Below are positions 12,043-17,607 of a DNA stretch of 64,000 nt, piece after piece. Source of the stretch: Cymodocea nodosa (Eukaryota; Streptophyta; Magnoliopsida; Alismatales; Cymodoceaceae); assembly GCA_036874045.1 (NCBI GenBank), contig CM072343.1, positions 8,762,001 to 8,826,000 of the forward strand, given 5' to 3'. How positions within the stretch are numbered: position 1 is the first letter of the stretch; the number at the start of each line of letters is the position of its first letter. The notes beneath the pieces were generated by a model, which was not told the origin of the DNA, searched no databases, and worked only from the letters and a program-made list of their open reading frames with translations. Made by a program: the position numbers and the translations under genes.

Positions 12043-13359
12043 TCAAGATGGAGGGGCACTCGAGCTTGCGTTCGTGTGTCCTCCAAACTGGTTACTACCA
12101 CTAGCATTTCGTGGGTTCAGTGCCGGCTGACTTGGCAAAGATCCACGCTCTCAGTTTCCAACAGATAAACGTTCTAACTGAGCCTCAATTCCCTTGATTG
12201 CCTGAGAGTGCTCCGCTAGCATTGGTCCCATCTTAGTTAGCAAAGTTTGAATCCCTTCCTCCATTTTAGCCATTCTGCGTTCCATATTAGCATTAATGTT
12301 TGACTGCGTGTTTGGTGTAGGAAGGGCAGGAACTTGTGTTTGGGGTTGTCGACTCGAACTAGCTCTGAAATGATGTTGCTCCGACACATTTTCTCTCAAA
12401 TAATCTTGGTTCCTCCAACTAAAGTTAAGATGGTTTCTCCATCCAAGGTTGTAATATTAATTGTTTCTCATTCCCGACCCCATAGCTTGTACATCCTCAT
12501 ATGGTTGTAATTCTTCAATTTTTTTTAGAGCAGCTTGTAATCTTGCTTCCATGCTAGTAATGTTGTTGACCGCATGAAGTCCTCGAGTAGGTGTAGACCT
12601 ATCAAAAGTCTTATCTGAGGATGTCTCCCATTGCATTGTGCGGTCAGCAAGCTCTTGTAGAAATTCCCAAGCAGCATTCTCTCTTAATTGACAAAAACCA
12701 CCAAGAGTCATGGACTCTAATATGGTTCTTGATTGCATGTTCAAACCTTCATAGATAGCTTGGGTTTGCCTTGCCTTGTCAACTCCATGGTTTGGGCATC
12801 TAGCTAACAAATTCATAAAGCGCTCCATATATCGCCAGAAAGACTCATCCGACTTCTGTTGAATACTCATAATAGCGTTCTTAAGCTGGATGGTGCGATA
12901 TAGAGGATGATATTTCTTCAGAAAGACCCTACAGAATTCTTCCCAAGAACAGATTGAGTTAGGAGGTAAACTATACATCCACCTCTTAGCATCCTCCTTA
13001 AGTGCAAAGGGAATAAATCTTAGCTTTATTGCATCTACAGGTACATCAAGAAAATGAATTAGCCTACACATCTCATTAAATTCATGTAGAAATAGGTAGG
13101 CATCTTCTCTTTCCAACCCTAAAAATTTTGGCAATTGATGGATGTAGTTTGAGTGTAACTCAAACTTTTGTCCTTCCACATTTGGAAGCACAAAACAAGA
13201 GGGGTGATCAAACTGTGGAGGATACCACACATCGGCTAGCACTCTTCCCTGGTCTTCCATTTGATGTAATGGTGGAGGGTTAACAGGTTCTAGAAGAGGT
13301 TCACAATGCTCTAACCTATTTGCTTCAGTTCTTCTCCACACTCCTCGATGCATGCACAA
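12043..13359 (-). pseudogene. G1 gag (capsid-type, retrotransposon gag domain), located 3' of pol
   Basis: About 439 codons in one frame with two stops (12457-12459 and 12151-12153). Residues about 70-260 form the plant retrotransposon gag/capsid domain, with motifs such as FELHSNYIHQLPKF, DAIKLRFIPFALKEDAKRW and ESFWRYMERF. Then come RNA-binding-like WRN repeats and a C-terminal GSLPSQPALNP. This is the gag normally encoded upstream of protease in Athila/Tat elements, where LPSQP..NP runs into TLRSGK. Here it starts 275 bp after integrase ends and is followed only by non-coding DNA and the LTR. It has no zinc knuckle, because that lies at the start of the 5' ORF. The start ATG at 13359 is the first in frame. 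Expression would need a separate or spliced transcript; a TTTCAG acceptor-like word lies upstream near 13450. Confidence 0.88.
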
Positions 13360-13633
13360 TGCAAAACTACTACAGGTAAAAACAGCAAGTAAAATAGCTC
13401 AGTTTAGATTTTACTAGGTTCTCGTCGTTGCTATCAATTGTACCACCCTGAAATACCAAGTAGTTACAAGATAAATTACAAGAAGAATAATTATAAACAA
13501 TAACATCCTATAGGAAGAATAAATTACAAATAATAACTATAAACAAACATGCATAAAAGAATAACTAGTAAAAATATAGAAAGAGTATATACACACTATA
13601 AAATATAGATACTTACAAAGAAGAAAGGAATGA

Positions 13634-14621
13634 CTAACTACTATATTCTACTTCACACAAATCTACACTACTTGCTTCCCGCAAATCAGCCTTATTTAAA
13701 AATAGTTTGAGACGTTGGCCATTAACCTTCATCACTTGCCCATCTTTAAGATGTTCAATATCTACTGCTCCATAAGGGTAGACTCTCTTTACAACAAACG
13801 GGTCATTCCACCTAGATTTTAACTTTCCTGAAAAAAGGTGGAGTCTAGAGTTATATAACAAAACTTGCTAGCCCTGTTGAAACTCTTTTCTTAAAATTCT
13901 TTTATCATGAAAAATTTTTGCTCTTTCCTTAGCAATTTTAGCATTTTCATATGCTTCATTCCTTAACTCTTCTATCTCATTCAATTCAAATTTCCTTTTA
14001 TCCCCAGCTGCCTTAAAATCTAAATTTAACTTCTTAATGGCCCACATGGCCCTATGTTCCAACTCTACTGGTAAATGACAAGCCTTTCCATATACAGCTC
14101 TATAAGGAGACATACCTAAACTAGTCTTAAATGTAGTATGGTATGTCCACAGAACATCATCCACTTTATCAACCCAATCTTTTCTTGTAGCACTTACCAG
14201 TTTCTCTAGAATCTGCTTAATTAACCTGTTTGCATTTTCAACTTGCCCATTAGTTTGAGGATGATAAGGCGTGGCAAGTTTATGAGTCACTCTATTCTTT
14301 CTCAAAACTTCTATTGCAAAAGTGTGTGCCATTATCACTGACTATAGCTTTGGGCACTTCAAATCTTGAAAATATATTTGATTTTACAAAGGCACATACT
14401 TCCTTGTTGCTGTTACTTCTTGTGGGGATTGCCTCTATCCATTTGGTCACGTAATCCACTACTACTAGAATATATAAATAGCCTCTTGAGTTGGGAAACG
14501 GACCCATAAAATCGATACCCCATAAATCAAAAGCATCAATTGCAATCACAGGGTTCAAAGGCATCATATCTCTTCTCCCCATTTTTCTAGCTTTTTGACA
14601 TTCTGTGCAATGCTTACTCAA
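13634..14621 (-). pseudogene. G1 integrase (truncated and frameshifted)
   Basis: Ty3/gypsy integrase lacking its N-terminal histidines. It begins with the CxxC half of the zinc domain (HCTECQKARK). The first catalytic Asp sits in LWGIDFMGPFP, the second in IVSDNGTHFC and the Glu in NGQVENANR. A frameshift at about 14300-14338 lies between the second Asp and the Glu. A TAG at about 13868 splits the C-terminal part, which has the usual LKSRWNDPF and VNGQRLK motifs. The 5' end is fused to RT by a deletion that removed the RT C-terminus and RNase H. It cannot be active as it stands. Confidence 0.88.
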
Positions 14622-16827: not shown

Positions 16828-17590
16828 GGAAAATAAGCTCTAATTCAGATACAAAGAAAATAAAGATTCAATGACTAAGTTAATCTTTACCAGCCTTTGT
16901 TTTTAATTTTTTTTTTTCTCACTCTTCAAGTGATTCACTATTAGTCAGATCTGCACAAAGTAGCAACCAAGTGAGTAACTTTAATCCATTTTAATAAAAG
17001 AATGACTACACAATGAAAGCATAAATAATAATTAAATGAAGAAAATTAAAGAATAATGCAGTATAAATACAAGATTACCTATACAACAATTTCCCAATTC
17101 ATTCTAGATTAACTAATGAATCTATTTTCAAATTAAAACTGCATGCTAGTCTGACTTTGAAAAATCATAACTTTTTGCATACAACTCCGAATTAAGCATA
17201 CAAATACTCTACAGAAACATCTAAACCTGAACTTTACAGGAAAAATATAGAAAAAATTCGCAGCAAGTTTTGCAAATAGCAGAATTAAATTTTCCGGTTA
17301 CAAGTTTGCATTTCAGAATAATTACAAATACTATACACTTAAACTTTCCTATAAGAGGTATGTCCTATTGACTACTGATTTTAAATCATCACTTAATATT
17401 GATAAAACTTATCTGAATATGAAGTAATAATATGGTATATCAAGAATATATATTACAAACAAAACAAATTGAACTACACATTAAAGCAAGTAAATACACA
17501 TTACACAAAAGAATATACACAACAAACAATCATCACTTTTCAAAGATCTATTAAAAGCACCAAAGAAATTCGGTAAAAACATAACCAAAT
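16828..17590 (-). other. G1 untranslated leader
   Basis: AT-rich sequence between the PBS and the first ORF, with a short pyrimidine run at about 16905-16925. No ORF of note; presumed packaging/leader region. Confidence 0.6.
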
Positions 17591-17607
17591 CCCCGGCAAC
17601 GGCGCCA
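17591..17607 (-). other. G1 primer binding site (tRNA-Asp type)
   Basis: The minus strand reads TGGCGCCGTTGCCGGGG, six bases inside the LTR end. This is the standard PBS of Athila/Tat elements. Confidence 0.93.

Follow-up and report, generated by a model that had tools for sequence, protein, structure and literature searches.

A branch of LTR retrotransposons in Cymodocea nodosa with gag downstream of integrase

Can a long terminal repeat (LTR) retrotransposon that encodes its capsid after its integrase belong to a replicating lineage, or is such an order the product of a rearranged locus? The question is raised by a 64,000-nucleotide stretch of Cymodocea nodosa (GenBank assembly GCA_036874045.1, contig CM072343.1, positions 8,762,001 to 8,826,000 of the forward strand), hereafter the window, in whose coordinates positions are given. 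It contains an element, G1, with the gene order knuckle/protease/reverse transcriptase (RT), integrase and then gag. A sequence-only reading of the window had described this order as transmitted, and had likened it to a circularly permuted polyprotein whose capsid would need its own mRNA. We found the permuted order in several diverged families, inserted as whole units; RT and integrase trees unite these families on a single branch, and none of the scored places has gag joined before pol. With a probability of about 0.9, we propose that an Athila-type branch replicates as LTR, primer site, pol (knuckle-protease-RT-RNase H-integrase), gag, polypurine tract and LTR, with Gag of the G1 family probably obtained via splicing.

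The G1 element

G1 is a complete insertion on the minus strand, from 19711 to 8111. Its 2.1-kb LTRs (TG..CA), with ends set by eye at 19711-17614 and 10207-8111, are 97.2% identical (58 mismatches over 2105 columns), in agreement with the similarity noticed earlier, and the target duplication AGATT flanks the element externally on both sides. The parts of G1 are given below in their order on the minus strand, with a slash at splice junctions and open reading frame abbreviated as ORF.

19712..19716, minus: target-site duplication AGATT, 5' side (flank reading)
17614..19711, minus: 5' LTR, TG..CA (LTR comparison)
17607-17590, minus: primer binding site TGGCGCCGTTGCCGGGGA, 0 mismatches (chance expectation 0.00), presumably of the tRNA-Asp type
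16828..17589, minus: leader from the primer site to the pol ATG, which 14 ATGs precede
16885..16895, minus: inferred splice donor GGCTG/GTAAAG, exon end 16891, intron start 16890 (from the L035 junction)
14614..16827, minus: first ORF, with CCHC knuckle (16761-16720), spacer, VTLRLGK, protease and the N-half of RT
14295..14621, minus: first piece of integrase (rve), fused to the truncated RT via a deletion
13871..14341, minus: second piece of integrase, in a different frame
13441..13463, minus: putative splice acceptor TATTTCAG/GGTGGTAC, last intron base 13448, first exon base 13447 (from the L035 junction)
12043..13353, minus: gag (capsid, PF03732), 3' of integrase, with stops at 12457 and 12151, no knuckle, and LPSQPALNP at its end
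11648..11702, minus: CATTGAGGACAATG motif, then a G tract, 3' of gag
10208..10220, minus: polypurine tract GGCTTGGGGG, then TTT, before the 3' LTR
8111..10207, minus: 3' LTR
8106..8110, minus: target-site duplication AGATT, 3' side

The pol ORF (16827-14614) begins with CFSCFSSDHVTSEC, a CX2CX4HX4C knuckle, followed by VTLRLGK, as had been read before, and its RT matches Pfam RVT_1 (1.1e-15). Integrase is found at 14621-13868 (rve, 3.4e-16) and the capsid 3' of it, with a Retrotrans_gag match of 1.8e-21 from the ATG at 13353 to 12457; the gag frame runs beyond the two stops to LPSQPALNP, with the final stop near 12043. The primer-site scan detected no primer site between integrase and gag. This copy is defective because RNase H, the C-half of RT and the zinc domain of integrase were lost through a deletion at about 14617, integrase has a frameshift near 14300 and a stop at 13868, and gag contains in-frame stops. 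The CATTGAGGACAATG/G-tract motif is also present in the element G2 and in loci L043, L044, L047, L048, L051-L053 and L058.

The same order in other families

The 374.6-Mb assembly containing the window (28 contigs) was searched with the gag (131 scored places) and the integrase (150 scored places) of G1, scored places being the best candidates. The first 116 integrase places were compared with the full set of 131 gag places, considering gag on the same strand from 12 kb upstream to 6 kb downstream. A gag is in range at 67 of the 116 places, downstream in 67/67, and the distance between both matches is 415-700 bases in 58 of these 67; 15 more distances, of 224-657 bases and partly from the same places, come from the relative P0132 used as query. 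Conversely, 38 gag loci (33 distinct places) were inspected, and 37 of them (32 places) are preceded on the same strand by the C part of integrase, the only locus without it being L035. The 37 gaps between integrase and gag were scanned on both strands, and none contains a primer-site-like match when up to 2 mismatches in 12 are allowed. An odd case at C5:6536848, with gag in a 1076-codon open frame, proved to be permuted too, since integrase lies upstream; a second odd case is the 677-codon frame at C14:12141501.

In L047, together with its neighbour L049, we found a young element with target-site duplication (TSD) AAGAT and LTRs differing by 6 mismatches and one 22-base gap. It has an exact primer site, a pol frame of 1490 codons without stop, then gag, then the LTR, and no ATG from the primer site to the pol ATG. 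The order within pol is knuckle CSYCHVKGHDESIC, ILRSGK, RVT_1, RNase H, H2C2 and rve (P0237), while the protease match is below the Pfam cut-off. Pol and gag are separate reading frames here and in L063; the L047 gag has its own knuckle and two premature stops, and ends after IPSQAITNP. Open gag frames, measured from stop to stop, occur in L063 (469 codons) and L064 (450 codons).

A second family is represented in the window by two interrupted copies, G2 and G3, with these parts:

25287..26630, minus: G2 gag (PF03732, 1.9e-17), 3' of integrase and of the third ORF region
27571..29760, minus: G2 third ORF region, related to that of G3
30280..30866, minus: G2 integrase, C part
39526..39551, plus: G3 decayed primer site, directly 3' of its 5' LTR
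39629..40288, plus: G3 first coding region, decayed, with in-frame stops and the degenerate knuckle CEFYNLEGHDISDC, interrupted by a copia element
40289..53365, minus: copia-type element inside G3, TSD GTAAT on both sides
53366..54388, plus: G3 ITLRSG (53392-53409), then integrase, beyond the copia insert
54389..59300, plus: G3 third ORF region, up to the LTR of another element at about 59301, with weak PF20167

Combined, G2 and G3 show the full permuted plan, which neither copy shows alone; their integrases are 89% identical over 150 columns. No capsid is found ahead of the degenerate knuckle in the first coding region of G3. The gag of G2 is 44% identical to that of G1, has one in-frame stop, lacks a knuckle and stops after LPIQAIPNP. 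A third ORF region after integrase, possibly env-like, was seen only in G2/G3, its PF20167 match being under the cut-off.

Around these two copies, an F-box gene fragment (24228-25126, minus, PF00646 9.3e-12) separates the end of the G2 gag from the G2 copy of the CATTGAGGACAATG/G-tract motif at 23558 and may stem from a host gene that the element captured. At 59301-62738 on the plus strand, a further LTR and a primer-site-like sequence (61497, 3 mismatches) are followed by more than 1.2 kb without evident gag in a region that is itself interrupted; this is probably a relative inserted in G3. Palindrome-like TAACTCAACGA and CGTTGAGTTA motifs recur in the G2/G3 LTR and between genes (27000-27130, 29950-30010, 39200-39270, 54750-54870 and 58870-59060).

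Gag-first relatives and trees

The closest gag-first relative is P0132 (1811 amino acids, source 'lgn'), 54% identical to the L047 pol. It is a single ORF with gag to about residue 475, FPSQT at 453, LRSGK at 487, and pol. Its search of the genome gave 26 scored places, all matching residues 470-1810 only. Compared with 281 listed gag places (131 + 150, partly overlapping), gag within 3 kb was, among those listed, downstream in 15/26, upstream in 0/26 and on neither side in 11/26; three of these 11 were fetched and gag is downstream in all three. With P0012 (knuckle to protease), none of the 66 scored places has a match beginning before residue 226, so that every match starts in the LRSGK region or beyond it; local alignments may end at poorly conserved sequence, and therefore we take this result as supporting evidence. 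Three of four P0012 loci have a knuckle-first pol start and the fourth has LRSGK with no gag in the upstream stretch read. Gag joined before pol was thus seen in 0/26 (P0132) and 0/66 (P0012) scored places, in searches that score the best candidates only and that rare gag-first copies could escape. Three scans of viral contigs revealed no relatives.

Among 159 public proteins met with both gag and pol or integrase, gag is first in 158; the other, P0097, had been flagged as gag-after-pol and was rejected, its match being a short one beside the knuckle only. The gag protein search returned 7 proteins.

The RT tree has 79 rows, and its seven permuted rows form one clade (93/89; 87 in the quick tree) with P0010, for which the gag position was not seen and whose RT groups with L047. 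The integrase tree, a quick one of 52 rows with an extreme branch for P0235, sets nine permuted rows apart by a branch with support 93, and P0132 is next. Both trees place the permuted elements as one branch nested among gag-first relatives. The quick gag tree (101 rows) groups 11 permuted gags with the fragment P0003 (83), with P0132 adjoining and L047 and G2 on long branches; because P0003 is inside the group, the permuted label needs two changes in this tree.

On P0132, the matches of the permuted gags from L044, L047, L063 and L064 begin at residue 1-4 and end at 463-475, and the permuted pols start at residue 476 or later with a pol query itself cut at residue 476, or at 470 or later in the whole-protein search. 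The cut point is therefore between LPSQP..NP and LRSGK, at the junction proposed by the sequence-only reading. Its idea of a circular permutation fails in its simple form: L047, L048 and L063 have knuckles in both pol and gag, and a clean circular permutation was therefore rejected.

A probable trace of a spliced gag RNA

The gag locus without integrase, L035 (C5), reads LTR, primer site, leader and gag, with pol absent. Its bases 1-1413 align with 18312-16890 of the window (LTR, primer site, leader), and bases 1412-3827 with 13448-11039 (acceptor onward through gag). The G1 counterpart of the lost piece runs from GGCTG/GTAAAG, at a distance of 63 bases from the pol ATG, to TATTTCAG/GGTGGTAC, at a distance of 94 bases from the gag ATG, both 5' of the respective ATG, and would correspond, with 1-2 bases of ambiguity, to all of pol as a single GT-AG intron. 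A genome-wide search for the 18-base junction (up to 2 mismatches) gave 5 places vs 2 for the reversed control: the exact match is L035, a one-mismatch match at C17:4410122 is 262 bases before a G1-type gag match, and the three others, with 2 mismatches, are at about the control level.

The acceptor AG is present in 20 of 28 G1-family loci (30 were scanned; L019 was dropped for more than 8 mismatches, and the site is absent from L035). Both sites are kept, as AGTTG/GTAAAG and ATTTCAG/GGAGG, in L064, the locus of the L031 gag, whose subgroup has a dS (synonymous divergence) above 1.5 to G1. Both L035 and the C17 place resemble DNA copies of spliced gag RNA, and these genomic copies strongly indicate that Gag of the G1 family would come from a spliced RNA, which supports for this family the separate capsid mRNA suggested before.

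Alternative explanations

Alternatively, L035 and the C17 place could be chance deletions or the product of rare splicing, with Gag made mainly from an internal promoter or by reinitiation. Several results weigh against our proposal on this point and favor such a scenario. Donor and acceptor scores, from a blind weight-matrix scoring done before the junction was known, are not above those of shuffles: for G1, the used donor comes second among the donors, the best of which has P 0.63, and the used acceptor comes first (P 0.10), donors have P 0.55-0.99 in three leaders, acceptors P 0.10-0.81 in five gaps, and leaders and gaps other than those of G1 P 0.28-0.99. No matching pair of sites was recognised in L047, L044, L048, L046 or L063, and the AG is lost in 8 of the 28 G1-family loci (7 AA, 1 TA). 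An ambiguity of 1-2 bases allows up to three placements of the L035 junction, of which one is GT-AG, and the C17 place was read for 18 bases only. Besides the 14 ATGs of the G1 leader, the gaps between integrase and gag hold 3-31 ATGs, and L035 retains the leader up to the donor with its many ATGs. Nevertheless, the missing piece is bounded by a GT-AG pair enclosing pol and is shared by two places, and the diverged subgroup of L064 retains both sites, so we regard this scenario as unlikely.

It could also be that the permuted elements are parasites, whose 3' gag is a passenger and whose capsid comes from ordinary gag-first elements. In the L047 family gag follows pol in 6 of 11 copies, and no gag match was found in the stretch read of the other 5. 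Each of the 5 gag copies tested has either one premature stop or two, and one stop position only is common to two copies. The copies without a gag match are L043, L050, L056 and perhaps L055 and L057, the last two being uncertain as the 3' LTR was not seen in place; L043 has TSD ACAAC and 7 LTR mismatches, and therefore moved recently without its own gag. Similarly unfavorable to our reading are the 49 of 116 integrase places without gag among the matches listed, and the fact that no copy was shown with both pol and gag open. Against parasitism, no joined gag-first element appeared in the P0132 or P0012 places, gag is open in L063 and L064, and it is constrained in the G1 family. Between the two subgroups of G1-family gags, dN (nonsynonymous divergence) is 0.07-0.09 and dS 1.55-2.27, a ratio of 0.03-0.05 (10 pairs); inside subgroups dN/dS is 0.20-0.44 (11 pairs), and in the L047 family it is 0.41-1.53 (10 pairs), with distances too small to judge. 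Stops in some of the copies compared were skipped. Judging from these ratios, the downstream gag of the G1 family is under purifying selection. We consider parasitism on gag-first elements improbable; it is more likely that certain families rely on gag supplied by other permuted ones.

A local rearrangement or nested insertion (a reshuffled gag-first element, or the gag of a neighbour placed after integrase by chance) might be suspected in a window dense with nested elements, where G1 is itself deleted and frameshifted, and is very improbable, as a single TSD with matching LTRs encloses the entire unit both in G1 and in L047, all 37 gaps are free of primer-site-like matches, the integrase-gag distances recur, and diverged families share the order and group in the RT and integrase trees. 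Nested or neighbouring elements as the source of gag were rejected, as was chance. In the relationships, three further points count against the proposed lineage: tree supports are moderate, P0003, a fragment whose gene order was not seen, falls inside the permuted gag group, and gag position was checked in 18 of the 26 P0132 places.

Proposed replication and origin

In the replication scheme that we favor for the permuted branch, the donor before pol would, in the G1 family, be joined to the acceptor before gag, and the spliced gag RNA would occasionally be reverse-transcribed and inserted, as in L035. The unspliced full-length RNA would serve as genome and as Pol mRNA, in which case splicing would set the Gag:Pol ratio. 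As Pol is not fused to Gag, it needs another route into the particle and could enter via its own knuckle bound to the genomic RNA. A knuckle starts pol in G1/L064, L044/L048, L047, L063, L059/L062 and L060, and also in P0108, a knuckle-first pol ORF from another source. Together with P0010, P0108 may point to further hosts of such elements. This position would fit genomic-RNA binding, comparable with the RNA-scaffold route of foamy viruses. We lean towards a broader interpretation, a lineage present in more than one plant that abandoned the Gag-first order and the fusion for good, with genomic RNA as Pol mRNA, knuckle-packaged Pol, and a 3' capsid from pol-spliced RNA, mirroring foamy viruses; a capsid stripped of its knuckle in two families is part of this same probable, less secure picture.

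Because of the two knuckles in L047, L048 and L063, duplication of gag to the 3' side followed by loss of the capsid of the first copy is the favored origin. This may have happened once, in a gag-first ancestor whose gag, cut just before LRSGK, was copied to the 3' side; the capsid part of the first copy would have been lost, leaving its knuckle as the start of pol, and the gag knuckle would have been lost later in the G1 and G2 families. In Arabidopsis, Athila elements lacking pol are known to recombine with others that carry it (PMC2410132).

Other observations

At 31000-37720 of the window, a copia-type internal region lies between repeat copies that are inverted, not direct. Elsewhere in the assembly, C1:9156515 and C1:9679304 have near-equal scores at a constant offset of ~0.52 Mb, shared by neighbouring matches, and represent a large duplication or an assembly artefact.

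Comparison with known systems

We take the lineage of the permuted elements to be Athila (Ty3/gypsy, non-chromovirus OTA), with no named Athila reference among the rows of the trees. Their RT and integrase are nested among gag-first relatives that have a capsid, a knuckle and the LPSQP..NP and LRSGK motifs, relatives which we also take as Athila. As in Athila, LTRs are TG..CA with a 5-bp TSD (AGATT in G1, AAGAT in L047, ACAAC in L043); the third ORF region that follows integrase in G2/G3 is a possible further similarity. RT-RNase H precedes integrase in the L047 pol, as in Ty3/gypsy. In contrast to the Ty3/gypsy order GAG-PROT-RT-RH-INT, gag comes after integrase and pol has its own initial knuckle, and unlike P0132, with gag and pol in one ORF, the permuted gag is separate and 3'. 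Gag-first order and Gag-Pol fusion are generally taken as the ground plan of Ty3/gypsy and most retroviruses. A recently moved lineage with swapped order and genomic traces of a spliced gag RNA shows that this plan is not obligatory.

REXdb classes Ty3/gypsy elements by the order GAG-PROT-RT-RH-INT, and elements with unexpected domain order were always removed as likely mispredicted (PMC6317226), which makes this filter a blind spot for permuted elements. A review of additional ORFs (PMC7264820) and a survey of Retand (PMC11963269) describe env-like and antisense ORFs after pol, and no sense gag after pol in the parts available. No report of gag 3' of integrase was found in titles and openings of abstracts, in searches outside of which most subscription journals fall, and it is only relative to them that we consider the gag-last order new.

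Spliced RNAs are described for Gag in BARE1 and copia and for env in Bagy2, and the Gag-less BARE2 depends on BARE1 (PMC3735527). Splicing in BARE1 removes no more than 104 nt, located beyond the gag domain (PMC3735527), and gag stays in front, unlike in the permuted elements. In foamy viruses (Spumaretrovirinae), Pol is unfused and packaged via genomic RNA, and a spliced RNA gives Pol (PMC7828637). The permuted elements resemble them in that Pol is not fused to Gag; genomic copies with a leader-to-gag junction suggest that here, too, one of the two may come from a spliced RNA. Foamy viruses keep gag first, whereas here Pol is first and splicing would serve Gag. The permuted lineage makes Pol packaging and a Gag:Pol ratio without fusion or frameshift testable.

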